64,000 nucleotides of DNA from a virus, in the IMG/VR virus record IMGVR_UViG_3300033153_009397, positions 16,004 through 80,003 of that record, one strand, 5' to 3'. Below the pieces are notes generated by a model that saw only the letters and a program-made list of their open reading frames with translations, was not told the origin of the DNA and made no database searches. A program made the translations under genes and the position numbers. Each line of letters begins with the position of its first letter. The first letter of the stretch is position 1. This document shows, piece by piece, positions 2,277 to 34,744 of the stretch.

Positions 2277-3122
2277 ATGACTATTATATATGGAAATTTC
2301 TATGATGTAATGTATGATAAAATAAACTGTGAATCTATTGACCACCTTATAACCGACCCGCCATTTGGTATAGAATTAAAAAGTAATCAAAGCTCGTACA
2401 ATAGAAAAGATGACAATGTAATAGGAGGATATATTGAATGGAGCAAAGAAGATTATTTTTCAAATATGAATGCGTTGCTATCTAGTGCTGCACGAGTATG
2501 CAAATCTACTGCTAACATAATAATATTCAGTAGCTGGAATAATCTACCTATCTTTTTCAAAGCTTTCAACAATAGATGGATAAAAGATATCTATAACTAT
2601 CAAGGAAATATAGTATGGAAATACCAATTTGGAGTAAGAAACAATTCAATAATAACGGGTCATTATCATATTCACTGGTTGACTTTTAGAACAAACAAGA
2701 AACCTATTTTTAATAGAGACTGTAGATATCCTCCAATAAGTGAGGAAAATAAAAGATTATCATATGCTGACAGATACAGTGTGTGGAACATAAAAAAGAA
2801 ATATAGACGAAATGTAAGAAAATATACCACAGAACTCCCATCGGAACTATGTGATAAGCTTATTCAATATTTCACTAACGAAGGGGATATAGTACTAGAC
2901 CCATTTGCTGGAGCTGGCAATATTGCTGTTGCAGCCAAAAAATATGAAAGATTGCCATTATCTATAGAACTTAACCATGAAGTTATACCTTACCTTATGC
3001 ACAAAGTATATGGTAAATCAATATTTGAGGGATGGCCCACTTCAAAAATAAAATCTTATTTAGAAAAAAATCCTATACAACATTCAAAACAATTGGAGGA
3101 CAGACAATGTTTAATACTATAA
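2277..3122 (+). CDS. DNA methyltransferase, N4-cytosine/N6-adenine, beta class
   Basis: 281 aa. The catalytic motif IV TDPPFG lies at residues 26-31 and the SAM-binding motif I DPFAGAGN at about 207, so the order is catalytic first and SAM second, as in beta-class amino-methyltransferases. The target is an exocyclic amino group of adenine or cytosine in DNA; DPPF favours N6-adenine, but the base cannot be settled from sequence. No restriction endonuclease lies beside it, so this is an orphan enzyme, probably for protection from host restriction or for marking viral DNA. Its last 16 nt overlap the next gene. Confidence 0.88.
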   Translation: MTIIYGNFYDVMYDKINCESIDHLITDPPFGIELKSNQSSYNRKDDNVIGGYIEWSKEDYFSNMNALLSSAARVCKSTANIIIFSSWNNLPIFFKAFNNRWIKDIYNYQGNIVWKYQFGVRNNSIITGHYHIHWLTFRTNKKPIFNRDCRYPPISEENKRLSYADRYSVWNIKKKYRRNVRKYTTELPSELCDKLIQYFTNEGDIVLDPFAGAGNIAVAAKKYERLPLSIELNHEVIPYLMHKVYGKSIFEGWPTSKIKSYLEKNPIQHSKQLEDRQCLIL

Positions 3123-10424: not shown

Positions 10425-11387
10425 TTAAACGTATTTACGCCACTCTGGTAATTGTTCATCCATCCATTGATACATTTCATTATCTGTATGATGGATGAAG
10501 TATGTTGAACTATTATTCAATAAATCACTAATTGCTATCTTCATCGCTCTTAACTGATTAGAACGTTCCTTCTCTGTTAGTTTATTTGACAGCTTATTCT
10601 TGCAAGTGTTATATTTCTTTGCTAATTGGTTTTTCCTCATTCCCGTTTGAGCTAGACCCCCTAACAATAGGGACATGGTAGCAATGGGTTCGGTTATACC
10701 ATCGAAGCGAATAGTTAAACCTAACTCTCTGCTCCTCTGAAACCACATAAGCAGAGCAGAAGCAGAAGCGTTATTTCTTGCCAATCTAGACAAGTCTAAT
10801 TGACCCAATTCAAGAACTAATAGATTAACAGACCTATTAATCAACAGTTCTGTTACATCAAATAGAAAGTCTGTTAGTTCATCAATCTTAAACTGTTTTA
10901 TTCTTGAGAATATCCCAAAGATGAAAGATTTGCCTATTTGACCCTTCTTAATTGACTTTTTAGCTACTTCAACGTCAGAGAATATAGCATATTGTAGTTT
11001 AGTCACTTTATCTTTAATATTCAACCCGTAAATCCCAAAACTGTTAAGGGTACGGGGTTTTGTAGCCTTATAGACCTTTGGCTTTGGTTTTCCCTTCATA
11101 ATCTTTACCTCTACCTCCTCAACTTCAGTTAGTGATAGGTAGATGTCATTTAGCTTCATATTTTTGTAATATTCTCCTTTTAAGGCTTGGTACGTTTCCC
11201 TCCAGAGCGTTTTAAACTCTGTTGCCTTTAACAATCTCTCTAATCTTCCCTTGCTTAAAGCTCTTTCTCCTTGAACGGTGAGGTCAAGGCTCTCAAACCT
11301 TACCCCTAGCTTATAGTTAGGGGCTATGAAGACTATAACTTGTTTTTCTTCGTCTTCTCCTATAACTCTTAAATCCTTGTTCAGCAT
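10425..11387 (-). CDS. Unrecognised protein, possibly RuvC/TnpB-like relict
   Basis: 320 aa from ATG 11387 (GTG at 11396 is an alternative nearer the promoter). A middle stretch runs from IFSRIKQFKIDELTDF through NLLVLELGQLDL to WFQRSRELGLTIRF. Its order resembles the RuvC-II region of TnpB-type nucleases (helix, then 'ivlEdL', then 'W..f...l.....G..v'). No CxxC zinc pair and no clear third acidic motif are seen, so this may be an unrelated fold. It stands alone as one transcription unit, controlled by the palindromic AAGGAAAC element at 11439-11494. A replication-initiator or regulator role would also fit the position. Confidence 0.5.
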   Translation of the reverse strand: MLNKDLRVIGEDEEKQVIVFIAPNYKLGVRFESLDLTVQGERALSKGRLERLLKATEFKTLWRETYQALKGEYYKNMKLNDIYLSLTEVEEVEVKIMKGKPKPKVYKATKPRTLNSFGIYGLNIKDKVTKLQYAIFSDVEVAKKSIKKGQIGKSFIFGIFSRIKQFKIDELTDFLFDVTELLINRSVNLLVLELGQLDLSRLARNNASASALLMWFQRSRELGLTIRFDGITEPIATMSLLLGGLAQTGMRKNQLAKKYNTCKNKLSNKLTEKERSNQLRAMKIAISDLLNNSSTYFIHHTDNEMYQWMDEQLPEWRKYV

Positions 11388-11423
11388 TTCAAACACAACC
11401 TAATATATAAAAGTGTTAAAAGT

Positions 11424-11431
11424 ATTTAAAT
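11424..11431 (-). promoter_or_regulatory. TATA box of gene 10425-11387
   Basis: ATTTAAAT on the minus strand puts the transcription start near 11400, a few nt before the GTG at 11396 and 13 nt before ATG 11387. The GTTTCCTT repeat element lies 7 nt upstream of it. Confidence 0.55.
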
Positions 11432-11438
11432 GTGTCGT

Positions 11439-11494
11439 AAGGAAACAAGGAAACAAAATTCTATCATGATAGGGCTTTGTTTCCTTGTTTCCTT
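11439..11494. repeat. Palindromic AAGGAAAC operator, copy 1
   Basis: Left arm 11439-11455 holds two tandem 8-mers AAGGAAAC AAGGAAAC plus A. Right arm 11478-11494 is its exact inverse. The 22-nt spacer contains a perfect 12-bp palindrome CTATCATGATAG (11461-11472). It lies directly upstream of a TATA box, as do the other copies, suggesting a binding site for a multimeric regulator. Confidence 0.8.
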
Positions 11495-11498
11495 ATGC

Positions 11499-11528
11499 AT
11501 TACATATATATACATTACATATATATAC
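11499..11528. repeat. Two tandem 15-bp AT-rich repeats
   Basis: ATTACATATATATAC occurs twice without interruption (11499-11513 and 11514-11528). Next to the palindromic operator, such an AT-only repeat could be an easily melted origin element or a promoter region; the sequence alone does not decide. Confidence 0.7.
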
Positions 11529-11644
11529 TCTTTAGAATGTAATTCAAGAAAAAAGAGTTTTTGTTTTTTTTTATTTAGTATAAGATGTAAGATGTAAATG
11601 GAGTTAGAAAATAAAGCCTTTGTTCAAAATCATCCTAAAAAAAA

Positions 11645-11965
11645 TTAAAACTCTCGCTCATAAACAGCGAGAGTTTTATTCGATAAATCATAGAAATATA
11701 GTTGCTCTTCATAGACATCATTTGTTTCGTCGTAGATTTTACGATAAATTAAGACTGAAGTCTCAAAATTCTTGAAACGAACAGTCTCTACTGTCGTAGG
11801 TATGCTTGAAGTAGATATAGTTTCTATTTCACAATTACCCGCTAACACAGTGTAGCGGTCTGTTCTGAAGTACAAACTTCCAACGCCATATTCGAGTGTG
11901 ATATCGAACTCGAATATATTATCCTCCTCATAAAGAAGAGCCCAAATTTTTTGTTTTTTGTTCAT
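11645..11965 (-). CDS. Hypothetical beta-rich protein
   Basis: 106 aa, beta-rich with a long acidic and aromatic content (YFRTDRYTVLAGN, VYEEQLYFYDLSN). GAGGAT 7 nt before ATG 11965 is the ribosome site. Third and last gene of a three-gene operon starting at 12610. Unrecognised. Confidence 0.6.
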   Translation of the reverse strand: MNKKQKIWALLYEEDNIFEFDITLEYGVGSLYFRTDRYTVLAGNCEIETISTSSIPTTVETVRFKNFETSVLIYRKIYDETNDVYEEQLYFYDLSNKTLAVYEREF

Positions 11966-11979
11966 TTTAATATCCTCTT

Positions 11980-12345
11980 TTATTTGTTCACGGGTTTTAC
12001 TCTATAATCTGGTAATTTATTTACGAAATGCTTAAAAGCATAGCTCTGAATGTTGTAAATCTCATCTAAACACTTTTGTGCTGAATGAAATGCTGAATGA
12101 AAGGGTATTCCATTCTTTTCAATGTACAGAATACCGTTTTCAATTCTAGCTCTGTACTCGTCGTAGTCTAAAAGACTAAAGAAAATATTAATTATATTCT
12201 GGTCTGTTCTAGACCAACCCTTACATGACATGACTTCACGTTTTGTGTGATTTAAAGTTAAGATTTCAGTACTAAAGTGTTGAATAGACACGATTGTGTC
12301 GTCGCCACATTCATAGATTGTAACTACAGCGTCAGTTTGTGCCAT
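11980..12345 (-). CDS. Hypothetical protein
   Basis: 121 aa. A beta-rich N-terminus (VVTIYECGDDTIVSIQHF) is followed by a helical C-terminus. AGGAGAGGT upstream of ATG 12345 supports the start, which overlaps the upstream gene by 14 nt. No family recognised. Confidence 0.6.
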   Translation of the reverse strand: MAQTDAVVTIYECGDDTIVSIQHFSTEILTLNHTKREVMSCKGWSRTDQNIINIFFSLLDYDEYRARIENGILYIEKNGIPFHSAFHSAQKCLDEIYNIQSYAFKHFVNKLPDYRVKPVNK

Positions 12346-12610
12346 TTTTATACCTCTCCTTTATATAGTTCTTGTATTCTTCTTCTTGCTTCTCTTCATA
12401 TTCTTTCCATTCAACAGTTTTGTGTAGTAAGTCTATGAGTGATATAAATTCACTATGTCGTTCTCCTCTATCTGTTATTACTAAATAAACTCGTGATTGG
12501 GGTCTTTTAGCGATATCAAGATTAACATAGACGTCCCATCCTCTACGTCTCAAATAAGAGATATTTTCTCTTATTGATTGTCTCAAAATTTCAGTTTTAC
12601 TTTTTTTCAC
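12332..12610 (-). CDS. Hypothetical protein with GTG start
   Basis: 92 aa starting at GTG 12610, preceded by AAAGGTGAG. Basic N-terminus (KKSKTEILRQSIRENISYLRRR), then a beta hairpin, then a charged helix (EEKQEEEYKNYIKERY). It opens the operon controlled by the TATA box at 12663-12670, with a leader of about 30 nt. Unrecognised. Confidence 0.6.
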   Translation of the reverse strand: MKKSKTEILRQSIRENISYLRRRGWDVYVNLDIAKRPQSRVYLVITDRGERHSEFISLIDLLHKTVEWKEYEEKQEEEYKNYIKERYKNGTN

Positions 12611-12662
12611 TTATCTCACCTTTTATTACTTTTGTTATCTATTGACACTTTCTTGCAAAACT

Positions 12663-12670
12663 ATTTAAAT
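12663..12670 (-). promoter_or_regulatory. TATA box of operon 11645-12610
   Basis: ATTTAAAT on the minus strand, 9 nt downstream of the GTTTCCTT element (copy 2), predicts transcription from about 12640. Confidence 0.55.
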
Positions 12671-12679
12671 ATAACGCAT

Positions 12680-12735
12680 AAGGAAACAAGGAAACAGTTT
12701 CCTTTCATAAAACCCCTTTGTTTCCTTGTTTCCTT
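12680..12735. repeat. Palindromic AAGGAAAC operator, copy 2
   Basis: Left arm 12680-12696 (two AAGGAAAC plus A) and exact inverse right arm 12719-12735. In addition, the left arm's second 8-mer is followed at once by GTTTCCTT, making a tighter inner palindrome. Located just upstream of the TATA box of the 12610 operon. Confidence 0.8.
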
Positions 12736-12778
12736 GCACTAAATCGATAAAAAAAGATTAAAAACTATAAGATGTTTT

Positions 12779-13126
12779 TCAGATGTCTTTGTAGGGGTGT
12801 CCTACTGCACTTTTACAGCTAGAACAAATAAGCTGTACTGTCAAAATACCGTCGCTATCACAATCTAGTGTTATCAAGTAGCTGTTACTGTCGTCTCTCT
12901 CGTCTTCCTCAATCTTACAATATTCACATTCACAAAAATGTCTTACTTCACTCTCAAACTCAATGTTGTACATCCCATGAGTTTCAGCGTTGTATTTAGC
13001 TCTTATCTTTCTTACTTCATCAGCTTGCTCTCTTGTTATTCTTTGAATATTGTAACAATTAGGACAAAAGACTGCATTGTAGAAAAGACTTACTTCCATT
13101 TTGCTACTGCACTTTTTACATCTCAT
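12779..13126 (-). CDS. Zinc-binding protein with several CxxC pairs
   Basis: 115 aa. CKKC at residues 3-6 and CPNC at about 18-21 form one ribbon; CECEYC near 64-69 and CSSCKS near 102 could form a second site. It overlaps the upstream gene by 4 nt (ATGA). Function unknown; two zinc sites suggest nucleic-acid or protein binding. Confidence 0.65.
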   Translation of the reverse strand: MRCKKCSSKMEVSLFYNAVFCPNCYNIQRITREQADEVRKIRAKYNAETHGMYNIEFESEVRHFCECEYCKIEEDERDDSNSYLITLDCDSDGILTVQLICSSCKSAVGHPYKDI

Positions 13127-13518
13127 TCTTGTATCACTCTCTTATAGCTATCAGAAACTAAAGCTCCGCATGTTTGGCATTCGTAAGCATCGAATGCAGT
13201 AGTGTAACAGTTATGTTTAACGGCAATAGCCATAATCCCATTTTTAGCGGGATACATTGGAACACCACAACGTAAGCACAATGGGGGACAATGTCTTGGT
13301 ATATTTGAAACCTTAATAGTTCTCAAGCTGTTCCATACTACTTTGTACATTGGAAATGTCCCTTTACTCTTATCTGGATACTTCTCTTCATCCATGTACT
13401 TATTAGTCTCTGTTATTATCTCTCTGAATATCTCATCGAATTTTCGGCTTCTCTCGTTACTATCTTCGATTTTTAACAATTTAATGTTTTCTTTACAGAA
13501 TATTCTTATTTCGTTCAT
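13123..13518 (-). CDS. Zinc-ribbon protein
   Basis: 131 aa. A helical N-terminal half is followed by CLRCG near residue 81 and CQTCG near 117 within a beta-rich ribbon. AAGGAGG lies 8 nt before ATG 13518. Coupled to the next gene by an ATGA overlap. Unrecognised. Confidence 0.65.
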   Translation of the reverse strand: MNEIRIFCKENIKLLKIEDSNERSRKFDEIFREIITETNKYMDEEKYPDKSKGTFPMYKVVWNSLRTIKVSNIPRHCPPLCLRCGVPMYPAKNGIMAIAVKHNCYTTAFDAYECQTCGALVSDSYKRVIQE

Positions 13519-13561
13519 TCTTATTCCTCCTTTAGTGTAGATGAAAAAAAAGGTTAAAAAG

Positions 13562-13768
13562 TTACTTTGTAACCGTGTTGATTACTTCTAATGTAACTTT
13601 TATCTCCGCTGGAACTTGTTTAAAAGCGTTCTTCCTAACGTATAGTCCTCCTACTACTGTAGGTTTCCCGCTTCTTATTTGTTCTTGATATCTGTAACAG
13701 TTTGTACTTTCTTTTTCTATCTTAATGAAAGTCAAAACTTGTTTTTCGGTCTTTGGTGTTGTGCTCAT
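13562..13768 (-). CDS. Small hypothetical protein
   Basis: 68 aa, basic and beta-rich (KQVLTFIKIEKES, then PTVVGGLYVRKNAFKQVP), possibly a small OB- or SH3-like fold. AGGTGG ends 6 nt before ATG 13768. It heads a transcription unit with the two zinc proteins at 13123 and 12779. Confidence 0.6.
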   Translation of the reverse strand: MSTTPKTEKQVLTFIKIEKESTNCYRYQEQIRSGKPTVVGGLYVRKNAFKQVPAEIKVTLEVINTVTK

Positions 13769-13820
13769 TTCTTTCCACCTAATTAATTAGCCTATTAATA
13801 TATATATAAATATATCTCGT

Positions 13821-13876
13821 AAGGAAACAAGGAAACTGTTTCCTTTCATGATTTCTTTTTGCGTCCTTGTTCCCTT
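13821..13876. repeat. Palindromic AAGGAAAC operator, copy 3
   Basis: Left arm 13821-13836 (two AAGGAAAC) is followed by TGTTTCCTT, making the inner palindrome AAGGAAACTGTTTCCTT. The right arm 13860-13876 is degenerate (GCGTCCTTGTTCCCTT). It sits upstream of an AT-rich promoter (13796-13815) for the 13768 gene. Confidence 0.75.
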
Positions 13877-14508
13877 AATTCCACCCCCTCTTCCTTATCT
13901 TGACCATAAGATGTTAAATATTAGGTAGAGCCTTTCTACTGCCCGACAAATTCTTTTTTTCTTGCGTCCTAAAGTCGAAAAATACCTTACGTCAGCCTTG
14001 TTTCACTTCAACTTAATGACAAGTGTGTATCAGTCAGCCTATTTTCTTTCTTTTGTACTACTTCCTACTTTTTTTCTTTAGATGTGTAAATTTACTAAAC
14101 ACCGATTTTCACAGACATGAGTTTAAAGGCTTGAGAACACTGACCGGTATATTCACAAGCGACGTAGTACAACTCTCTTGTAATACCATCTTAACATTTC
14201 TATCATCTTCAAACTTCATCCATAAGATGTAAGATAGTAAGACGATAAGCTTACAAGCGTTTCGCTATTCTTGTACTACTTCATCTTCAAAACCTTCGAT
14301 AACCCCACTATACTATATATATAGTGGCACTATCGAAAGCTTTGGAAACGACAAAAGGGGTTTGAGCCGGAGAGGAGACAGAATAAGAAATTAAAATCGA
14401 CAAAAGTCAAGAGAGGACAGAAAAACAGCGTTAGAAAGAAAAAAGGAAAAAGAAGAAAAGAGAACTAAAGATAAAGACACTTGAGGGATATCAAGAAACA
14501 GTTATCAT
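13877..14508. other. Gene desert with strand-composition switch, possible origin
   Basis: About 630 nt without a convincing gene. The left part (to about 14290) is pyrimidine-rich on the plus strand; the right part (14338-14500) is strongly purine-rich and has no ATG. The switch falls on an imperfect inverted repeat at 14295-14337. Such a layout fits divergent transcripts or a replication origin. A 36-codon minus frame at 14109-14219 has no supporting features. Confidence 0.45.
14295..14337. repeat. Imperfect inverted repeat at the composition switch
   Basis: TTCGATA (14295-14301) pairs with TATCGAA (14331-14337), then three mismatches, then CCACTATA (14305-14312) pairs with TATAGTGG (14320-14327), leaving a 7-nt loop. 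The centre is a TATA-like alternating AT run, so it could also act as a promoter in both directions. Confidence 0.65.
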
Positions 14509-14808
14509 TTAACTGATACTGAAATAATCCTCTTCATCTTCGTCTTCATCAGAAAAGTCTATGTCAGCCCAATGCATACATGCTCTCAAGAGATGATTGT
14601 AATCGCCCATTTTAGCGTATTTGTAGAATTCTTTTTCTTGGGTAATGTAACCTTCTCTATACTCGGGGTACTGGTGCCTTTGCCTTTTAATGGCATTAGC
14701 AACAATGCCCATAAGATTAAAGGCATTGCTATTGACACCAGTAAAACTAACAGAGGGTTTATCGTACCATTCGGGTAGTTCTGGAAATTCGATTTGCTGT
14801 TCAGTCAT
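14509..14808 (-). CDS. Hypothetical acidic protein
   Basis: 99 aa. The middle is amphipathic (NAFNLMGIVANAIKRQRHQYPEY) and the C-terminus very acidic (DIDFSDEDEDEEDYF). It ends the ten-gene ATGA-coupled operon that starts at 18693. Unrecognised. Confidence 0.6.
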   Translation of the reverse strand: MTEQQIEFPELPEWYDKPSVSFTGVNSNAFNLMGIVANAIKRQRHQYPEYREGYITQEKEFYKYAKMGDYNHLLRACMHWADIDFSDEDEDEEDYFSIS

Positions 14809-14999
14809 TTTAAATCCTCCTTAATCTTCTTTTTGTAACTTTCGCAGTACATCCCATCTCTCGGTATATTTCTGATAGTGACTTTCTTTTTGGAGCAATA
14901 AAGCTCCATCTCGTCGAAATATTTGCAGTCTTCTTCATGGCAATACATTGTCCTTCTGAAAAAGTATATAGGTATTTTACGTTTCTCTCCTTTCTTCAT
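14805..14999 (-). CDS. Small cysteine-rich (DUF1540-like) protein
   Basis: 64 aa. Cys spacing CHEEDCKYF...YCSKKKVTI...CESY is like the small DUF1540 metal-binding pattern. ATGA overlaps on both sides. A similar arrangement occurs in the 28099 gene. Function unknown. Confidence 0.6.
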   Translation of the reverse strand: MKKGEKRKIPIYFFRRTMYCHEEDCKYFDEMELYCSKKKVTIRNIPRDGMYCESYKKKIKEDLK

Positions 15000-15583
15000 T
15001 CGTAACGTACCTCCTTGTTTTTCTCTCGTTCTATGGCATAAAGGGAAGCCATGAATTCAACACCGTTGAAAGTGTGTCGAGAATTGCCAAGCATAACGAG
15101 TTTGTAGTTTTTAAGAGCATAAGAGAAGCCAATGAGTAGATTAGTAACAGCAAGACGCAATGAAACTTCATCATCATGTCTATAAAGCAGAACAAACTCG
15201 GGAACTATGGTAAAAGCATGTCTGGTATGAGCATGAGAAGTACGGTAACTATAATGTTCAGTATAGCGTCGAACTACCCTCTCTTGTAAAATAATTGCTG
15301 GTTCAAGTTCAAACATCTTACGTAAGCGTCGAATAACAAAACAAAGAGAAGGGGGCAAAAACTGGTCAATGACATGCCAATAATAGTAATCATCTGCATC
15401 TGTAATAGGCAAACTCTTCATGGCTTCAAGGTAAGGAATATCATACTCGGCATAAGAGCCATAGCCTTCTTTTTGGAGCTTATCAAAGGGTGTTCTAAAC
15501 TTTGTAGGTTGCCAATTTACTAAAATTCCCGTATATCTATGAGGATAGAAGGAAGGGAGAATGTAAGTATCACTTTTAGTCAT
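14996..15583 (-). CDS. Hypothetical protein
   Basis: 195 aa from ATG 15583 (a TTG one codon upstream is also open). Aromatic-rich N-terminal half (SFYPHRYTGILVNW) and a helical C-terminal half containing an arginine- and histidine-rich loop (YSYRTSHAHTRHAF). No domain recognised. ATGA overlap with the next gene. Confidence 0.6.
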   Translation of the reverse strand: MTKSDTYILPSFYPHRYTGILVNWQPTKFRTPFDKLQKEGYGSYAEYDIPYLEAMKSLPITDADDYYYWHVIDQFLPPSLCFVIRRLRKMFELEPAIILQERVVRRYTEHYSYRTSHAHTRHAFTIVPEFVLLYRHDDEVSLRLAVTNLLIGFSYALKNYKLVMLGNSRHTFNGVEFMASLYAIEREKNKEVRYE

Positions 15584-15813
15584 CAATATCTACCTTCCTC
15601 CACCTTTATGCTAAAATCATATGTTGAATATTTTGAGTTTAGTAACAGAACAGCAAAGAAAAAGACGACAGCCGTTTCAAAGGAGCATTTGCCAAGTAAA
15701 TATAGGACTGGAATAAGGATAATTGCTACTAGAGTCGTTATACCTATAACAAAAGTGATGCAATTAATACGATATTGGAGAAGCTTTATTCTATACCAGT
15801 GTTCTTCAGTCAT
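15583..15813 (-). CDS. Small membrane protein with two transmembrane segments
   Basis: 76 aa. Hydrophobic stretches at about residues 17-41 (CITFVIGITTLVAIILIPVLYLL) and 44-60 (FETAVVFFFAVLLL), with both ends charged. Size and topology resemble small holin-like proteins, but that is not evidence of lysis function. Confidence 0.6.
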   Translation of the reverse strand: MTEEHWYRIKLLQYRINCITFVIGITTLVAIILIPVLYLLGKCSFETAVVFFFAVLLLNSKYSTYDFSIKVEEGRY

Positions 15814-16112
15814 TAGAGCTCTACCTCTACATGCTTACGAACTTCTTTAATGGCTTCGTCGTACTGTTTTCGTAATTCAACAAGACGGGTCTTAATCTCG
15901 TTTTTCTTTTCAGTCAGTGTATCAAATCTAGATGGATTAGAATTAATCCAAACAGATTGACCCTTATGCAAAGTTGCTTCTTGGTCGATATAGACGATTT
16001 CATCTATTTCTTTATCGACCCTTCCCAAGCTTGCTATAGCTTGGCTGATTTGCTCTTTAATATCTTGTAAGACCTTAAGAGCTTCTTCATATTCTTCATT
16101 TACTTTATTCAT
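15813..16112 (-). CDS. Coiled-coil protein
   Basis: 99 aa. Heptad-like helices at both ends (EEYEEALKVLQDIKEQISQ and KKNEIKTRLVELRKQYDEA) separated by a short loop with KGQSVWINSNP, so probably a helical hairpin. Coupled by ATGA to the gene at 16109. Confidence 0.6.
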   Translation of the reverse strand: MNKVNEEYEEALKVLQDIKEQISQAIASLGRVDKEIDEIVYIDQEATLHKGQSVWINSNPSRFDTLTEKKNEIKTRLVELRKQYDEAIKEVRKHVEVEL

Positions 16113-17122
16113 TTTTCTTTTCCTCCATTGATGAAGAGTTTATTTAGAGCGTTAAGGAAATCCCTTTCATTCTCATTGAGGAGTGAGCTTTTGATGTCTC
16201 CATAAGGATAATCTTTAAGCACCCTTGCAATTTTCTCTATTAGAAGGATTGCTTTATCCTTATGTTCAATAGGTACATAGTGACTTGATAGAATGCTGAA
16301 GAGATTACTAGTACGCATAATAACAATGAAATAAGGTATGCCTTCGGATTTTAGCCCTTTGGCTAACAAATCAGCGAAGTTTTTATTGAACTCTGCTGTA
16401 CTATCACCCCATAGATGACACATATATTGTATCTCTGCTACCAGCTTTGTATTTTCAACTTCATAGTTTCCTCTCAAGGCATCAGTTTTAATGTAGGATA
16501 CATGTTTGCAGATATCAAGTATCCAGTCTTGATATATTCCAATTGCTGGTTGCCAAAAAAGATTATCTTGAGGGTCTCTTTCTTCTCCTACAATCTCAAC
16601 GTTTCGATAAGCAATATCCCATAGTATAGGGTCATCATAGATAACTTTTAATTTCAGATTGTTGTGATAACCTAAAATCTGAACTGGACACTCATTCAAC
16701 CTTTCGTAACAACCATAGCACAATCTTCCTTCTTTGCCTTCTATATGTGAGAATTCACATCCATCAACGTATTGTGCTTCTTGTGCATAGTCGTCGAAAT
16801 CTTGGGTTTCTCCGTTTTCATCATCATATTCTATTATAGCATTACAGCTAACACAACGATTAAGCCTTTCTTCTTCTATCAGAGTGATTTTAAAGATAGT
16901 GTCTTGGTCATGTTCAATATCGTAAGAAAGGAGCTCTAATGTCATAATTCCCAAGTCATGGATGTTTGAAACTGGTACTGGTATAAGTTCATAGTAATCT
17001 AAATGATATTGCTTTATTAGGGTATCTAATGAGATATGACCTTGAGTTTCAAAGAAACTCTTTTTTAGGTCATCATACATCTCATTTATACGCCAGTTTA
17101 AAGTTATCATCCTTATTCCCAT
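16109..17122 (-). CDS. Large hypothetical zinc-binding protein
   Basis: 337 aa from ATG 17122 (ATG 17110 is an alternative). The centre has CVSC near residue 90 and CYGCYERLNEC near 136-146, separated by an acidic insert, which looks like a treble-clef or split zinc finger. The C-terminal 120 residues are helical. It is the longest protein of this operon. No family recognised. Confidence 0.6.
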   Translation of the reverse strand: MGIRMITLNWRINEMYDDLKKSFFETQGHISLDTLIKQYHLDYYELIPVPVSNIHDLGIMTLELLSYDIEHDQDTIFKITLIEEERLNRCVSCNAIIEYDDENGETQDFDDYAQEAQYVDGCEFSHIEGKEGRLCYGCYERLNECPVQILGYHNNLKLKVIYDDPILWDIAYRNVEIVGEERDPQDNLFWQPAIGIYQDWILDICKHVSYIKTDALRGNYEVENTKLVAEIQYMCHLWGDSTAEFNKNFADLLAKGLKSEGIPYFIVIMRTSNLFSILSSHYVPIEHKDKAILLIEKIARVLKDYPYGDIKSSLLNENERDFLNALNKLFINGGKEK

Positions 17123-17559
17123 CCAAAACTTATGTCAAGAGCGTGTAGCCCTATCATTATCTTGCCTTCATGTGTATCATAGCCAAAGAACTCTCTACAC
17201 CAAAACTTTCTTGTTTTTCTATCTTTGAATAAATAGCGTATGAATTCTCTTTGTTCGAATTTATGTCCAATGATGGATATGAAAGTTTCTTCATCTAGAA
17301 GGTCAGAAATAGTAAGGTCAAGACGGTTAATTAAATCACTTGAATAAGTACGATAATAATTCTTTCTACTCTCACTTCCACAATTAAACCCGTAAGTAGC
17401 TAGGCAGAAGCTAGCCAATGGTATGTTTTTAACATGGAATTCTTTAGGGAGCTTCTGAATGAATTGCTTATATGCTTGGGTCTGTTTTAGTTTCTTTATT
17501 TTGGTTCTATTGACTTTGTAAGTTTCAAGCTTCTGAATAATTTTTCTGATTTTACTCAT
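17113..17559 (-). CDS. Hypothetical basic protein
   Basis: 148 aa with a lysine-rich N-terminal helix (KIRKIIQKLETYKVNRTKIKK) and an aromatic C-terminus. It overlaps its neighbours by 10 and 4 nt. Unrecognised. Confidence 0.6.
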   Translation of the reverse strand: MSKIRKIIQKLETYKVNRTKIKKLKQTQAYKQFIQKLPKEFHVKNIPLASFCLATYGFNCGSESRKNYYRTYSSDLINRLDLTISDLLDEETFISIIGHKFEQREFIRYLFKDRKTRKFWCREFFGYDTHEGKIMIGLHALDISFGWE

Positions 17560-18068
17560 TTGTTATTCCTCCTTTTGGGATTTCCCCATAATAATCTAGC
17601 AATAATTTCTGCTATTCCTCTTGTTGTCTCGATTTTTCCAGTATGCTTTATGACATGGTATCCATTACATTCTCTGCATTGTGTCTTGGGTATCCATTCA
17701 TTGGTTAAATAGACTGTATCAGCATCTACTATCTTGTCACAATCCCAACAGTAATGAGATTGAGGTAGTAATTTAAATCGGTGTTTAACTTCCATAATCA
17801 TTGCACTTTCTCTTTTTTCTCCTTTGTTCTTCTCCTCCTTTGTTCTTCTATCTCTTAATTTTTCCCATAGTGTGCGATGGTTGATATTGAAGAACTGTCC
17901 AAAGACTTGAACGTTTAGGAGCCATATTAGCTCTTGTACTTCGATTGTGTCTTTAATATCAGTGAGATTGTTAGTCTCATGTTTTTCTAGAACTTCAGTT
18001 AGCCTATTTAGAATTGCTCTACTATTGACTGGTAAAGCGTTTGAGTAGATAGTTTGTTCAATTTTCAT
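17556..18068 (-). CDS. Hypothetical zinc-ribbon protein
   Basis: 170 aa from ATG 18068 (ATGA overlap; in-frame ATGs at 18086 and 18098 are also possible). Helical N-terminus, then a charged linker (RDRRTKEEKNKGEKRE), then a zinc ribbon CWDC/CREC at about residues 111-137. A nucleic-acid-binding role is plausible but unproven. Confidence 0.6.
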   Translation of the reverse strand: MKIEQTIYSNALPVNSRAILNRLTEVLEKHETNNLTDIKDTIEVQELIWLLNVQVFGQFFNINHRTLWEKLRDRRTKEEKNKGEKRESAMIMEVKHRFKLLPQSHYCWDCDKIVDADTVYLTNEWIPKTQCRECNGYHVIKHTGKIETTRGIAEIIARLLWGNPKRRNNK

Positions 18069-18382
18069 CTTTCTATCACTTCCCATCCGAGAACCCAAGC
18101 AATGACATAAGCAGTCATTCTGTATTGTATTCCTCCTAGGAGGAGGTAAAATTGTAAGAAACGTCCTCCTCCTTCGACTCTGCTGATTTGTTCATTTGCA
18201 CACTCTTGTAATTCTTGGTACTCATTGACCAATTGCTCTAGTTGTTCATGAGATTGAATTACAATAGGATTGCCTACATTGGTAAAAACGCTTTCTGAGC
18301 TGATAACGCTATAAGGTCGGTCTGGTACATCTTCTTCAAAGGTTCTTTGGCTTCTTTCTTTCCATTGTGCTATAAGTGTCAT
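18065..18382 (-). CDS. Hypothetical protein
   Basis: 105 aa with a central coiled-coil-like helix (EQLEQLVNEYQELQECANEQ) and a hydrophobic C-terminus (FYLLLGGIQYRMTAYVIAWVLGW) that could contact a membrane. ATGA overlaps at both ends. Unrecognised. Confidence 0.55.
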   Translation of the reverse strand: MTLIAQWKERSQRTFEEDVPDRPYSVISSESVFTNVGNPIVIQSHEQLEQLVNEYQELQECANEQISRVEGGGRFLQFYLLLGGIQYRMTAYVIAWVLGWEVIER

Positions 18383-18693
18383 TTTAAAGTCTCCTCAAAG
18401 ATATTTTTGCCATATTTGTATTCTAATGAGTTTTTGTGCAAAGGTAACGGGTCTAGCTTTTCGAGAATGGGTTTGACTTCCTCACGGCTGAATGGAACTA
18501 CAATTTCTTGTGCATGTAGTTCTTTTTCATGGTTATAATTAGGTTCAGAAGCCCAATCGGCATAGATGAGCCATCCTAAACAATTAGACCAGCATAAAAC
18601 TGAATAATCTCCAGAAGGGAATTTCTCTGTTCTAACTCCGTAACGAGTACGGGTGGCTATTATGGAATTTATTGACTGAACTATGTCTGCCAA
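18379..18693 (-). CDS. Hypothetical protein with TTG start
   Basis: 104 aa. The start is TTG at 18693, set by GGAGGA 6 nt upstream; no ATG fits. Aromatic-rich (LCWSNCLGWLIYADWASEP). First gene of the 14509-18693 operon, downstream of a tandem AAGGAAAC element and a weak TATA box near 18764. Unrecognised. Confidence 0.55.
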   Translation of the reverse strand: MADIVQSINSIIATRTRYGVRTEKFPSGDYSVLCWSNCLGWLIYADWASEPNYNHEKELHAQEIVVPFSREEVKPILEKLDPLPLHKNSLEYKYGKNIFEETLK

Positions 18694-18780
18694 TAGTATT
18701 CCTCCTTTTTATTTGTGATTGTTTTTTTGGTCATTTTCAATCAGCCACAATTCTCAAAGGGTTTTTTAAAGATTTAGTGT

Positions 18781-18813
18781 AAGGAAACAAGGACACAAGG
18801 AAACAAGGACACA
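18781..18813. repeat. Tandem AAGGAMAC element, copy 4
   Basis: Four consecutive 8-mers: AAGGAAAC, AAGGACAC, AAGGAAAC, AAGGACAC, plus A. Unlike copies 1-3 it is tandem, not palindromic. It lies between the minus-strand operon starting at 18693 and the plus-strand TATA box of a structured RNA (18816-18824), so it could control both. Confidence 0.8.
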
Positions 18814-18815
18814 AA

Positions 18816-18824
18816 ATTTAAATA
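18816..18824 (+). promoter_or_regulatory. TATA box of the 18846 structured RNA
   Basis: ATTTAAATA is centred 26 nt before G18846, the first base of an 11-bp helix. The exact match of predicted start and helix start is good evidence that this is a promoter for a short RNA. Confidence 0.6.
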
Positions 18825-18912: not shown

Positions 18913-18945
18913 ATAAATAAGATGTTAGATATTTGATGGTAACGT

Positions 18946-21283: not shown

Positions 21284-21323
21284 GAAAAAAAAAGAAGGTT
21301 AAGATATAGATGTGAGATATCTT
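21284..21323 (-). terminator. Hairpin plus T run after gene 21322-21780
   Basis: AAGATAT (21301-21307) pairs with ATATCTT (21317-21323); on the minus strand it is followed by nine Ts (complement of 21286-21294). This separates the 21322 gene from the operon starting at 21228. Confidence 0.5.
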
Positions 21324-21780
21324 AAGCATTGAATATATGAGAAACGAAGTATCCTTCTTCTGACCACTGTAGGACATAAATTCTTGTACCTTTTTTGATT
21401 TCTGCATTAGCACAAGCCATATCATATTCATGTTCATCTTTATCGAAGTACCTTGTTATTTGTCCATTCCACTCTATTGTGCTGAACCATTTTCCAGCCC
21501 AACTATCGTTTGCTCCTATAAGTTTTCTATATTCTTTGTCTATTTCCCAAGCTAGTTCAACAGCTTTTCTATATATACTTCCTCCATACATATATCCATA
21601 ATCAGTAGTTTGTATTGAACTTGTGGCTACATCTCCATACTCGTTGGTTGGTTCTACTTCTATCCAGTCATACGTTTTATCATATCTCACTATATATCTA
21701 TAACCTTTTATTCTTGTTTCTGTCTCTTTTCCATCGTAGAGACATGCAAGTATTCTTCTTATTGTTCTTTTATCAGCCAT
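21322..21780 (-). CDS. Hypothetical protein
   Basis: 152 aa, with a basic N-terminus and a beta-rich body with many Tyr and Trp (YRYIVRYDKTYDWIEVEP, WFSTIEWNGQITRYF). A single-gene transcription unit with a striking promoter of three 10-bp tandem repeats. Unrecognised; isolated control suggests a regulator or an early function. Confidence 0.6.
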   Translation of the reverse strand: MADKRTIRRILACLYDGKETETRIKGYRYIVRYDKTYDWIEVEPTNEYGDVATSSIQTTDYGYMYGGSIYRKAVELAWEIDKEYRKLIGANDSWAGKWFSTIEWNGQITRYFDKDEHEYDMACANAEIKKGTRIYVLQWSEEGYFVSHIFNA

Positions 21781-21790
21781 TTTAAGTCAC

Positions 21791-21820
21791 TGTATTTACA
21801 TGTATTTACATGTATTTAAA
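21791..21820 (-). promoter_or_regulatory. Three 10-bp tandem repeats over a promoter
   Basis: TGTATTTACA, TGTATTTACA and TGTATTTAAA follow each other without gaps. The last carries the TATA box (minus strand TTTAAATACA), putting the transcription start at the first repeat, 11 nt before ATG 21780. One helical turn per repeat suits a cooperative repressor covering TATA and start site. Confidence 0.65.
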
Positions 21821-21851
21821 TGTTTTGGAAAACATAAAAAAAAATAAAAAA

Positions 21852-25303: not shown

Positions 25304-25325
25304 GTATTTAAAGATAAAGTAGTAC

Positions 25326-25955
25326 ATGATGAAAATGACCGATAAAGATATTTTTTCGAGATATCTTCACCCAACAAGGTCTCAACACATTTTGTTGGGA
25401 AATAAGGAGAAATTAAGTGTGGGGGAAGTGGCTAGTCTCTTAGGGAAATCGGAAAATAGAATTAGACAGATGATTAATGATGGGGAGTTATTAGCAGATA
25501 AAGTAGGTAGAAGATGGGAGGTTTATTCTTTTCCTCTTCTTGAAAAACTATCATCTTTTAAAAGACTGTTAAGAAAAGCCAAGATTGGAAGATTAAACTC
25601 AGAGTATTATAGCAATATGTGGTATGCTAAAATGGATGAAACCTTCATTGAATATTTCATCTTTGATGATTTAGGAGATTCTGTTGAAAGAGTAATAAAG
25701 ATTCATTATCTACGAATTAATGAGGCTAATGTTTCTGCTCAGTATATAGTTCCTTATTGTTCTATGACTATCACTTATAGTCAAGGAATTCCTATTGTTT
25801 ATACTATGAGTCAGAGGTGGAATGTAGACAATAGATTTGATAATTATCCCAATAAGCTTATCAGTCCTAAATGGATGTTGTTAAGTTATTATTTGATAAA
25901 TGTGTACTTGATGTCTGAAGGTGAGAAACATGCCAATTGTGATAGTAAAAGGTGA
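25326..25955 (+). CDS. Helix-turn-helix (excisionase/MerR-like) DNA-binding protein
   Basis: 209 aa. LSVGEVASLLGKSENRIRQMINDGELLADKVGRRWEV at about residues 32-68 (in pieces: the helix pair SVGEVASLLGKS and NRIRQMINDG, then the wing) is a clear excisionase-type winged helix. The C-terminal 120 residues are unrecognised and beta-rich. First gene of an operon with a ribbon-helix-helix-like protein next, so probably a viral transcription or replication regulator. Confidence 0.7.
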   Translation: MMKMTDKDIFSRYLHPTRSQHILLGNKEKLSVGEVASLLGKSENRIRQMINDGELLADKVGRRWEVYSFPLLEKLSSFKRLLRKAKIGRLNSEYYSNMWYAKMDETFIEYFIFDDLGDSVERVIKIHYLRINEANVSAQYIVPYCSMTITYSQGIPIVYTMSQRWNVDNRFDNYPNKLISPKWMLLSYYLINVYLMSEGEKHANCDSKR

Positions 25956-26274
25956 AGGAGATATGAAAAAAGTGTCACGAGCTGTAAGAGTTCCAAGTGC
26001 TCTCAGAAAATGGATTGAGGATAGAGGGTTAGGATATACTCAAGCTATTAAGTTAGTAATGTCTTTGGAGTTGGAGCAAGGAGATATAGACTATATTGGC
26101 GATGGATATCTTATAACCTTTAAGGTTAGTGAAGCAGAAATAGAAGATTTAATGAGGGAATCAATAAGAATGAGGATACCTTATTCTACTATAATAAGAA
26201 GAAAGCTACTTAAATGGCATATAATGGAATGTGAAAAGAATGGAGAAACCGACATTATTACCAGAAATAATTGA
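25930..26274 (+). CDS. Ribbon-helix-helix-like DNA-binding protein
   Basis: 114 aa from ATG 25930, preceded by AAGGTGAG; ATG 25963 is a shorter option. VSRAVRVPSALRKWIEDRGLGYTQAI (read in two parts, strand RAVRVPS then helix LRKWIEDRG) resembles a ribbon-helix-helix. A second similar unit VSEAEIEDLMRESIRMRIPY follows. Likely DNA-binding; target unknown. It overlaps the previous gene by 26 nt. Confidence 0.5.
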   Translation: MPIVIVKGEGDMKKVSRAVRVPSALRKWIEDRGLGYTQAIKLVMSLELEQGDIDYIGDGYLITFKVSEAEIEDLMRESIRMRIPYSTIIRRKLLKWHIMECEKNGETDIITRNN

Positions 26275-29957: not shown

Positions 29958-30177
29958 CTTTATGCATCCTTGTAATGTGAACACTTTTTCCTCTTTTGGT
30001 AGAAAATACTCTTCCACAATGTTCACAGACATATCCAACTTCTGCTGCCTCATAGTTGTCAGTTGAGTCCGTATATGCTGTACTAGTGTGTACCCAAGTA
30101 CGTCCACTATCAGTTGAATCTATCATAACAATGGGTTCTTTCTTTTCTTCCTTTTTCTTTCTTTTGAAAAATTTCAT
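29950..30177 (-). CDS. C2H2 zinc-finger protein
   Basis: 75 aa. A lysine-rich start (FFKRKKKEEKKEP), a Ser/Thr-rich linker, then a classical C2H2 finger YVCEHCGRVFSTKRGKSVHITRMH at residues 49-72 (Cys-x2-Cys, Phe, His-x4-His). Single-finger proteins of this kind are common in archaeal viruses and often repress or activate promoters. Coupled by ATGA to a winged-helix gene. Confidence 0.75.
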   Translation of the reverse strand: MKFFKRKKKEEKKEPIVMIDSTDSGRTWVHTSTAYTDSTDNYEAAEVGYVCEHCGRVFSTKRGKSVHITRMHKDV

Positions 30178-30539
30178 TCTTTTATCACTGTCCTTTTTAT
30201 CTGCCTATTTTCTACTTCTCTGAGTTTGGCCCGTTTGTAGACCTTTTTTTCTCTGCCAAGTATTTCTTTTTTCAGTTTTCTAAATTCTTTCAGTCTATCT
30301 GGCTTTATTCTGTATACTGGTGTTAGATGTGAGTCTTTTGGATGTCCTTTTTCTAGCAGTTCTGCATAGCTAAATGGATTGATATGGTAATGTACTGTTC
30401 CAGATTTCTTACCTACTTTTTCGCATATTTCACGAATACTCCACCACTGTAAGTTCCCTTCTTCATCAGTTTCTTCTAATAAATCAAGGATAACTTCTTT
30501 GGTGGACTTGGCCTTAACGTCGTCACTTTTTAATGGCAT
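30174..30539 (-). CDS. Winged-helix transcription regulator
   Basis: 121 aa. EVILDLLEETDEEG, then WSIREICEKVGKKSGTVHYHINPF as a recognition pair, then a wing near LTPVYRIKP; the C-terminal 35 residues are a basic helix (REKKVYKRAKLREVENRQ). First gene of an operon with the C2H2 protein, so probably a paired regulatory module. Confidence 0.7.
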   Translation of the reverse strand: MPLKSDDVKAKSTKEVILDLLEETDEEGNLQWWSIREICEKVGKKSGTVHYHINPFSYAELLEKGHPKDSHLTPVYRIKPDRLKEFRKLKKEILGREKKVYKRAKLREVENRQIKRTVIKE

Positions 30540-30849: not shown

Positions 30850-33800
30850 TTATTTTTGTATGGCAAAAAAATCATCAACTTGTGTATTAATTATTTTCTT
30901 TTTAGGCATTGTATCTTTTACTGGTTGTATTAATTGTTTAAAAACATTATTGAGTCTTTTGATATATTCTTGGTAGTCTAAATCCCTTTTTTTGGCTATT
31001 TCTATGGGTTCCACGCCTAGTATTTTATTATCCATGGACGGTTTATCAATGACGTAAACAAAGTCGATAAATGAGCCTTTTCTCATGATGATATTTTCAT
31101 CAATAGGATGTTTACTGGATGATTGAATAGCTTCAACTAATTTTTTGGCAGCACGAACATGAGGAGCTCTTTGTTGAGTATATTTAGAAAGAGGACGAGA
31201 AAGCTGTTTAGTAATCTTATAATCTTCAATACTGCCATGTTTTAATCGTATACCTCTAACAAATTTATCTCTAATGGCAATAAGATTGAAGTAAAGTTCT
31301 TTAATTTGCTCGGGACGGTTAAATTTTTCAATGGCTGCTATCCACTCATTGAAAGCTTGCTGTATGATGAGAGGGGTATCTCTCTTCTTGCCAACTAATC
31401 CTTTAATTGTTTTATGAAGCTTACCGTCTTTTTGTTCAATAACTACATAGTTTTTCTTTTTATGCAGTACAAGTATTAAGCCCGTTTCTTCTATATCTAT
31501 GTCTACATCATATTTTTCACTAATTTTTGGCTGCATTGTTTCTTTAAAGTGATTTACATCTAAACCTTTAATGAAAACACTGTCGGTATTATGTACAATT
31601 AGTTCTCCCACCCCAGCATGAAAATGATGGTTGTAAGTTGTAAGGTCGTATACATTTTCTTCTTCTTCTCTTAATAGTTCTATTTTTTTTATTTTTGTTG
31701 AGGAGTATCTTTGGTTGTTATTTGATATATTAAGACGAAATATATCTAATTTATCTCTTCTGGTATTAATAGAAACTTTATATCCTATTGACTTGGCGAG
31801 AAAATAGAGTCCTTGAGCTCCTATTTTACCTTTAATATCACATCTTAAGGAACCACTTTTTTTATCTCCATCCCCTCGATAATATCCTTCAAAGAAGGCT
31901 TTTTTTATCTCCTTTTTGCTATTAAGTATAATTGAAGGTATTTTCTTGTAACCATCTTCTGTGTATAAACTTAGATAGATTTTTACCATATCTTTTATGT
32001 TGCCTTTTGGTATAACTCTATATATTTTCGTACTCTTTCTGATATCTATGATTTTGAAGTCAGTAAAATGTCCGTAGACTTTGAGTAATTTCTTTTTTAA
32101 TTCCTTCATTAGTGGTAAATTATTTTTTCCTATATACCAAGAGTATTTTGTTCCCCATTTGGTATTATAAATACCACAACTACCATCGGCAAGAAATAAA
32201 CCCATTATCCAAGCTTCGTCTTTGGAAATATAATTCATGTTACTTTTTATTTCTGGAAAAGAGTGTAAAAGTTTATCACCAATTAGTATCTCAGAAGGTC
32301 TAACTATATTATTATTGGGTTTTAATAATGAATGGTCTTCTGTAACATCTACACAACCAGTATGAGTTAGTATTCTATAAATTTTCTTTTTGGTTTTGTG
32401 TTTATGTATTTTTAGAATTCTTGTCCAACCTTTTTCTGTCCACACTCTTAGATTTTCTCTAAATTCATGGTTTTCTAATTCTTTTATTGGCATGATTTCT
32501 ATGTAACCATCTAAGTTGGTTATTATTGGTGTATCTGCTGTTACACTATCTCCATAGAATACGGTTAAACCTTCTGCTTCAAATGTTTCTTTGATGCCAA
32601 TAAGGGTATCTCGTCCAGTGGCTGTTACACACTCTGCAACTGGACCGCAGAAAAAGGGGAAAGATTCAAAACCAGCAACTCCATAACTGGCATTGATGAT
32701 TACTTTTAGCCATTGTTCAATAACTTTGGCTATAGCATTAGTATTTTTCATGGGCTTATAATAGTAAACTCTTGCATCCTTGATGAAACCAACAACTGAA
32801 GGAAAGAGACCAATGTATTTGGTACAAACTTGATGATAAGCACCTTCAGAAACTTTTATTTTATTATCTTTACATTCTTCATGACCACAATTCATTGTAG
32901 TATAACATAAGTTATGGTTTACAATCATGGTGGGATAAAGAGAGGCTACATCAGCAACAATAATATCGTAGTGTACTCCTTTTTCCGGCTCAATGACTAT
33001 TGCTCCTCCATATCTCTTACCAGTGGTTGAAGCGGAAAGTATTTTTCCTATTGCACTTAATTCAATACGAGAAATGGCTAACATGTTGTAGAAATGAAGG
33101 GCACGATAGAATATATTTGATATAATAGCCGAAACTTGTCGTCTAACAGCACTTTCTACTGTTAAATGACCCATCCTCATTGCCATACAAATAAGTTTCA
33201 TTACTACTTCATTGTCAAAAGTAGCCAGTTTTAAGCAAAGAGATGTATCTTGAGCATTGTAATATAGTAATTCTTGCATACAGAGGTCTGTTACTCTTCC
33301 TTCATAGTCATATTTTGTCTCTCCTATGAGTTCTTTTGATACATCATCAAGAGAGTTTTGTTTGTATTTGTTTTTAAAAGCGTAATTTTTAATGCTTGGA
33401 TTAGAAAAGAATGGATAAAGGTCAATGAGGAACTTGTCTTTCAATCCTTTTACTATGCGGTCTTTTTTCTTATATGTTCTATCTTCATCTTCTGGTCGCA
33501 TAAATCCCCATATTCTACTATCATAAATTCCCAGATATTTCATTCTGGTGACAATATAGGGAATATCAAACATATCAAGGTTATATCCTACCACGAATTT
33601 TTGTTTCATAGCAAATAAGAATATCATAAATTTCTTTAGGAGTTCCACTTCATTATCACATATTCTAATAAGATGATTAGGATGTTTGAGGTTAAATTTT
33701 TTGACTTTTATTTTTCTGACCTCATCTGATATAACGAATGATAGGTGATGAATATCATCTCCTTTGTACCAACTCAAGGTAATGGAAGAAATAGGTGAAA

Positions 33801-34479: not shown

Positions 34480-34744
34480 TTTTTATACTCTCCATTTTTA
34501 GTCCAGCTTTATCCATCTGGAATTTAACGAATCTTACATGATTTTTATGGCTTATTTCTTCTTTTGTACAGTGGTCTATTATCTGCAACCGTAGTTCTTC
34601 CAGAAAGTCCATTAGTGGTAGTTTATCCATTGGTAAAAACCCATTTTCGTCAAACTCATTTAGTTGTGTTGCTGCAGCAAGTAGAATACTGTAGAACATG
34701 TTCGCTTTTTCTTTACCAAATATTATTTTTATTTCTTCTTCCAT
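34454..34744 (-). CDS. Hypothetical helical protein
   Basis: 96 aa. Helical with FLEELRLQIIDHCTKEEIS and a final basic section. It overlaps the methyltransferase upstream by 32 nt and polB by 26 nt, so it is surely co-expressed with them. No family recognised. Confidence 0.55.
   Translation of the reverse strand: MEEEIKIIFGKEKANMFYSILLAAATQLNEFDENGFLPMDKLPLMDFLEELRLQIIDHCTKEEISHKNHVRFVKFQMDKAGLKMESIKNDRMADKH

Follow-up and report, generated by a model that had tools for sequence, protein, structure and literature searches.

Octamer arrays at four minus-strand promoters

This study concerns a set of tandem octamer arrays, built from the word AAGGAAAC, that lie in front of four minus-strand operons in the left part of a 64,000-nucleotide window (the whole stretch of DNA analyzed) from the IMG/VR virus record IMGVR_UViG_3300033153_009397. 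The record, hereafter G000, has 80,003 bases, and the window comprises its bases 16004-80003; coordinates given without a genome label are window positions of G000. The window encodes a large terminase, a Baseplate_J protein, a family B DNA polymerase with an intein and a TROVE protein. Its promoters are of the archaeal type, with a TFB recognition element (BRE) and a TTTAAA or TTTAAATA box about 25 bp before the starts, and in the related virus G002 (see below) this box is repeatedly TTCGAAAGGTTTAAA. The promoter type points to an archaeal host, and the virus is probably an archaeal tailed virus.

The four operons, all on the minus strand, code for small unannotated proteins. Operon 1 (10425..11396) encodes a 323-residue protein with no significant family match. 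Operon 2 (11645..12610) comprises three small open reading frames (ORFs; 12332-12610, 11980-12345 and 11645-11965) and is closed by a terminator-like stem at about 11645-11680. Operon 3 (12779..13768) likewise has three small ORFs (13562-13768, 13123-13518 and 12779-13126), and a noncoding stretch of about 600 bp (13880-14510) separates it from operon 4 (14509..18693), a series of closely spaced ORFs running from 18379-18693 down to 14509-14808 and including 17113-17559. One left-operon protein yields a weak Lar-like match (E 0.0064), which is insufficient for an anti-restriction call.

The word AAGGAAAC is strongly enriched: the window has 21 copies where shuffles lead one to expect 3.4 (largest shuffle 11). 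Of the 21, 14 fall at the four loci. The remaining seven are single copies within ORFs and represent background; tandem copies are absent from coding regions. The 16-mer AAGGAAACAAGGAAAC has five exact copies (11439 and 12680 and 13821 on the plus strand, 11479 and 12720 on the minus strand) and is otherwise absent from the 80,003-base record; its backwards control has none at all. Allowing one mismatch adds only the fourth array (18781, 18789 and 18797), whereas the decayed arm at 13861 differs at three positions; beyond the named loci the record holds nothing within two mismatches of the tandem pair. Exact tandem pairs are thus confined to sites 1-3, on both strands, and site 4 is a four-unit array in which alternate units are substituted once.

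All four arrays are intergenic and belong to separate promoters spread over 7.4 kb; in each, a TATA box directed at a minus-strand operon follows 8-10 bp downstream. At site 1 the TATA-proximal arm is a tandem pair of AAGGAAAC (11439..11454, plus strand; the minus strand reads GTTTCCTT twice) and the distal arm is its perfect inversion (11479..11494, minus strand). The arms are 24 bp apart and a CATG (11465..11468) marks the dyad axis, with 10 bp between it and the arm on either side; the TATA box of operon 1, TTTAAATA (11423..11430, minus strand), is 8 bp from the proximal arm and 34 bp from the CATG. A second TATA-like stretch, TATATATA, lies on the plus side beyond the distal arm (11505-11527). 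Site 2 shows the same perfect pairs and 24-bp separation (proximal arm 12680..12695, plus; distal arm 12720..12735, minus), together with an extra inverted half-site (12697..12704, minus), TATG replacing CATG at the centre (12706..12709, minus) and a TATA box, again TTTAAATA (12662..12669, minus), 10 bp from the arm. Site 3 has an intact proximal pair (13821..13836, plus), an extra inverted half-site (13838..13845, minus), a central CATG (13847..13850), the decayed distal arm (13861..13876, minus) and the TATA box TTTATATA (13803..13810, minus), also at 10 bp. Site 4 consists of the direct units AAGGAAAC-AAGGACAC-AAGGAAAC-AAGGACAC (18781..18812, plus), with neither distal arm nor CATG, and a TATA-like box, TTTAAAAA (18763..18770, minus), 10 bp away.

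The original prediction had described tandem octamers upstream of TATA boxes at these four positions, with perfect inverted pairs in the first two, a decayed arm in the third and a four-unit array in the fourth, and the counts and the mismatch scan agree with it on each point. The closeness to the TATA box also holds, but the spacing it gave, 6-9 nt, has to be corrected to the values above. Its central claim, that one operator family precedes the four operons, is well supported by the confinement of the tandem copies and by the fixed TATA spacing. It had missed the extra reversed half-sites of sites 2 and 3, the central CATG, and a companion motif, TAAGATGT, found 30-105 bp distal to every site on the plus strand (11581..11588, 12768..12775, 13907..13914 and 18918..18925 for sites 1-4).

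The same layout with other words in related viruses

Four scans, with the capsid protein, the polymerase, the terminase and a left-operon protein, recovered as close relatives only G001, G002, G003 and the fragments G004 and G005; the last of these stops in a different plus-strand operon where the arrays would be, and is uninformative on them. G003 (a 37.6-kb record) is the same virus at 99.98% identity; about 5.3 kb of additional sequence in it joins one end of the G000 record to the other, which suggests a circular map of about 85 kb. G001 (85.6 kb) and G002 (79.3 kb) have core genes in common with G000 at about 45-60% amino-acid identity, and few of its left-operon genes are present in them. 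The ends of G002 carry a direct repeat of about 100 bp. A megablast search with 24 kb and a tblastn search with the capsid protein found no match among annotated phages, no provirus turned up when the capsid was aligned to GTDB contigs, Rfam gave no match, and GC skew indicated no clear origin.

As a tandem, AAGGAAAC is common to G000 and G003 only and was not found in G001 or G002, and an IMG/VR scan with the single-word pattern plus CATG returned the same virus alone. The left promoters of both relatives are nevertheless preceded by elements of equal geometry with other words. In G001 the element reads GTCGCT-N7-CATG-N9/10-AGCGAC-N4-AGCGA(C/G), at 81623, 82324, 83560 and 84562; in G002 it reads TTCG(G)-N11/12-CATG-N10/11-(A/T)CCG-N4-TCCG, at 76756, 77683, 78813 and 1412, the arm words being WCCG-N4-TCCG and TTCGG-N3-TTCGG (CCGAA/TTCGG). 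Generic arm patterns, composed after the sites had been seen and then run on the whole genomes, retrieved 3, 4 and 4 complete sites in G000, G001 and G002, respectively, and nothing else. A complete site follows the order distal arm, central CATG, proximal double arm, TATA box. Each virus also has one reduced site made up of direct units only (G000 18781, G001 1763, G002 2382).

The CATG centre is present in 10 of the 11 complete sites, 9-11 bp from the proximal arm, the exception being the TATG of G000 site 2, and in none of the three reduced sites. Against a background of 0.1-0.3% per position (0.001-0.003 per bp), the binomial probability of this occurrence, taken at 1% per site, is about 1e-19. 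The distance from the proximal arm to the TATA box is 8-10 bp in G000, 12 bp in G001 and 13-15 bp in G002; the ten complete sites linked to a TATA box all have 34-38 bp between it and CATG (34-36 bp in G000). We rejected CATG as a general promoter feature, its excess at 34-38 bp stemming from the operator sites themselves.

Two genes connect the operator-led operons across viruses. In G002, the ortholog of 11645-11965 (operon 2) occupies 77308-77625 and comes immediately after the site at 77683, and that of 17113-17559 (operon 4) occupies 77990-78436, in an operon led by the site at 78813. These two orthologous pairs point to a regulon that is partly the same in G000 and G002, with its word replaced. 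As for the proposal that the element should recur upstream of the same operons in relatives, the tandem word itself is absent there, but its architecture, carrying another word, is present at the operons of the orthologs.

The companion motif follows the operators as well. Distal to the operators and no more than 200 bp away, TAAGATGT accompanies 4/4 of them in G000, 4/5 in G001 and 3/5 in G002 (11/14), always on the plus strand of the genome, against about 0.3 for random placement in the early region (P <5e-5, 0.00015 and 0.0019). Some plus-strand genes are also trailed by it in the same orientation, and it may therefore be tied to the DNA strand rather than to transcription. Further copies are seen at 14223 and 25089, and the motif is often extended as TAAGATGTNAGAT, the long form occurring on the plus strand only (4/0, 5/0 and 3/0 in the three viruses).

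Serine recombinase genes with a Resolvase domain adjoin an operator site in G001 (80542-81582, plus strand) and G002 (75698-76690, minus strand); none was detected in G000. The operon 1 protein (10425-11396), a positional counterpart of the G002 gene, had by eye been suspected to be a diverged member of this family, which Pfam, hhalign and PDB searches did not support. A tyrosine-type integrase was found in none of the records.

Candidate regulators and alternative readings

G000, G001 and G002 share a syntenic trio comprising an unknown protein, a protein with an N-terminal winged helix-turn-helix (wHTH; HTH_17/MerR-like) domain (25326..25955, plus strand) and a small protein of 103 residues (25963..26274, plus strand). 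The model of the small protein (predicted local distance difference test score, pLDDT, 87) contains strand-helix-helix twice in one chain (E3-10 H12-20 H25-32 E49-56 H57-70 H74-93), as in a tandem ribbon-helix-helix (RHH) protein. Structure searches place it next to RHH proteins from Sulfolobales viruses, the F-plasmid protein TraY (Z 9), single-chain Arc and, at a lower score, AvtR (4hv0; Z 5.3, root-mean-square deviation 3.3 over 73 residues, 12% sequence identity). The wHTH domain is predicted with a pLDDT of about 70-83 over residues 21-70, the model being poor outside this N-terminal domain, and the corresponding proteins of the relatives match HTH_17 at E 6e-8 and 5e-10. Another conserved wHTH protein (30174-30539) was rejected as the regulator: its recognition helix is almost unchanged across the viruses, a poor fit to words that have been rewritten.

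Two unlike beta-strands in one chain would suit a non-palindromic octamer, and we infer on this ground, with moderate confidence, that the predicted tandem RHH protein is the likeliest to bind the operators. The first strands differ across the three viruses (SRAVRVP, VKNFRVP and VRTIRFP), as do the second ones; these differences would fit a changed specificity, but the proteins are so divergent that the evidence is weak. That a single viral regulator binds all four arrays, as originally proposed, is plausible, and this candidate lies within the 25930 product named at the time.

The confidence in this pairing is only moderate, mainly because a second circuit leaves the assignment of protein to word ambiguous. 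The word TTGTACTAC has just three copies in the G000 record (14053, 14164 on the minus strand, and 14271), all within the noncoding stretch 13880-14510, and the wHTH gene again has TGTACTAC at its start (25319-25326). The equivalent words in the relatives, TTGTATCAC in G001 (region 84836-85031) and TTGTATTAC in G002 (region 3000-3095), likewise occupy a noncoding stretch and the promoter of the wHTH gene. This arrangement has the look of a DNA-binding protein that controls its own gene and of an origin-like or control region.

Taken together, these sequence comparisons lead us to favor, with reasonable though far from full confidence, a reading in which the four arrays are operators of one virus-encoded regulator, likeliest the tandem RHH protein, over small, fast-evolving and probably early genes. 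In a complete site (distal arm, about 10 bp, CATG, about 10 bp, two-unit proximal arm, 8-15 bp, TATA) the regulator would occupy the units side by side, in 8-bp steps in G000, with cooperative contacts between bound units spanning the CATG centre; in a reduced site it would have only the direct units, without CATG. Placed beside the TFB recognition element, it would alter the recruitment of TBP and TFB. RHH proteins are known to bind DNA cooperatively and stepwise, and those of archaeal viruses act as repressors by blocking BRE and TATA or by spreading in their direction; AvtR, a monomeric tandem RHH protein, can switch archaeal viral promoters on as well as off, and the binding sites of F55 are tandem repeats within the early promoters of SSV1 (PMC5569661). 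In archaeal viruses, the early genes have in common strong promoters surrounded by virus-specific sequences, and an Aca-like protein is proposed to switch them off once an initial burst is over (PMC11065993). Operators upstream of BRE are compatible with both repression and activation, and we lean somewhat towards a shut-off that follows an early burst. The left operons would probably be early, host-takeover operons, and may include anti-defence genes.

Several observations weigh against this reading. The RHH_1 profile (PF01402) does not match 25963-26274 at E 1, nor does any other Pfam family. The operon of this protein has no AAGGAAAC, and its promoter has TGTACTAC instead; hence there is no sign of the direct autoregulation usual for RHH proteins, unless the RHH protein reads TTGTAYYAC. 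In G001, the complete site at 81623 has no clear TATA box, and the units step by 10 bp rather than 8, so that the binding mode there would differ. An exchange of roles, with the wHTH protein as the regulator and the tandem RHH protein on the TTGTAYYAC sites, would accommodate some of the same facts: both proteins are syntenic, the wHTH domain is well predicted, and TTGTAYYAC/TGTACTAC stands in a promoter shared by both genes and could serve either. We nonetheless hold it to be unlikely, given that an array of direct 8-bp units with a non-palindromic word would more typically belong to an RHH protein and that TTGTAYYAC, the promoter site of the wHTH gene, is nearly constant between viruses while the AAGGAAAC-class word is rewritten. 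Words that are wholly different on a layout that is kept might also reflect a host transcription factor that differs between hosts. Among one-genome-per-species contigs, however, the composite word was met in one record only, in a Bacteroidales metagenome-assembled genome (L044 3140-3260), where the exact match to the paired array is an unrelated octamer microsatellite with coinciding repeat units; this search demanded the exact paired array and would have missed hosts with single sites. A host factor is a rather improbable binder.

The arrays could further serve replication, as iterons for an initiator, or partition, as centromere-like parS sites for an RHH ParB protein: the parS of pSM19035 combines direct and inverted 7-8-bp arrays over promoters and is bound by the RHH protein omega (PMC9499535), and sites 1-3 flank the 600-bp noncoding stretch. 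The strongest argument for transcription operators over iterons is that the distance to the core promoter is constant at promoters that are separate from each other; within each virus this holds for both the arm-to-TATA and the CATG-to-TATA distances. In addition, the arrays are distributed over four promoters rather than clustered in one origin beside an initiator gene, the stretch 13880-14510 with its other repeats is a better origin candidate, and ParA-type AAA_31 (PF13614) matches are absent from all four records (0/4), which may be incomplete. We thus give this possibility little credence, and the replication initiator that the original prediction had offered as an alternative is disfavored for these sites. 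Least probable, to the point of being nearly negligible, is that the inverted arms form RNA hairpins acting as terminators between operons. Several sites do lie directly 3' of a preceding operon, and the arms remain complementary while their sequence changes between viruses; but a hairpin would not need a word that is constant across the loci of one virus, the three direct-only sites cannot form one, and operon 2 already ends in a separate terminator-like stem.

Known systems and further genomic features

The regulons of archaeal tailed viruses are almost unknown. In kind, the arrays resemble the operator sets that early promoters of archaeal viruses are known to share. The new elements are the conserved composite scaffold, its CATG centre, and a recognition word wholly replaced between related viruses. 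We offer only as a tentative suggestion, on which we would not insist, that the relatives keep the scaffold (TAAGATGT, arms, dyad CATG and TATA distance) while completely rewriting the word together with the RHH contact strands, in a heteroimmunity-like system where every virus would lock its regulon against its relatives' regulators, with CATG as an invariant bend or contact point. In lambdoid immunity regions and in the stoperators of cluster A phages, related phages have the same regulatory layout with differing operator words and matching repressors. The likeness to such heteroimmune temperate phages lies in the same layout with different operator words in related viruses; here, in contrast, there is no cI-like repressor, the promoters are archaeal, and serine recombinases stand beside operators only in the two relatives.

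In SIRV2 and other archaeal viruses (Aca8-type regulation), numerous small early genes also share a virus-specific promoter sequence placed around BRE/TATA, with words that vary between viruses and a viral DNA-binding protein proposed to act there; the consensus in these Sulfolobales viruses, however, covers the core promoter of mostly single genes (PMC11065993). The sites studied here form a separate upstream array with a CATG centre, before operons of a tailed virus, on a scaffold conserved across differing words. F55 of SSV1 provides a precedent for an RHH-type repressor, which our regulator would also be if the candidate is correct, on tandem repeats in several early promoters with graded occupancy, but it is a small homodimer whose sites overlap BRE and the transcription start site (PMC5569661), whereas the present arrays lie upstream of BRE, with 8-bp units and inverted distal arms, and no tyrosine integrase accompanies them. 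AvtR of AFV6 (4hv0), which can activate and repress, would be comparable in its two RHH motifs per chain and its several sites per viral genome, and differs in that its sites are imperfect inverted repeats without an 8-bp direct array. The omega/parS system of pSM19035 likewise repeats short non-palindromic units, of 7 bp, in direct and inverted orientation over several promoters, and an RHH protein binds them; there, the units are contiguous and serve partition with ParA (PMC9499535), unlike the 8-bp units in two pairs around a CATG spacer seen here, where no ParA-type protein was found.

If the favored reading of the arrays as operators of one viral regulator is right, they mark an early regulon, likely of host-takeover and anti-defence genes, in a group without cultured members, and provide a regulatory tag by which such genes could be found in relatives even without protein homologs. 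The kept scaffold with rewritten words would make a testable case of operator-regulator co-evolution in archaea.

The genomes show some other features. GATC is absent from all three (0 against 235, 332 and 254 expected), and GGCC, CGCG, GCGC, CCGG and CTAG are strongly avoided too, in G001 almost totally; a Dam-like methylase is encoded at 34713-35564. The family B DNA polymerase (30850-34479) has its intein identified by splicing and LAGLIDADG matches, and the related polymerases are shorter (902 and 925 residues) and appear to be without it. An 18-bp tandem repeat, TGAACCACTAAAAAATAC (2.7 copies, 63896-63943), lies just outside ORF 60695-63862 as called. A 10-bp tandem repeat, TGTATTTACA (3.3 copies, 21791-21823), is located just downstream of the TATA box of gene 21322-21780 and is possibly another operator.

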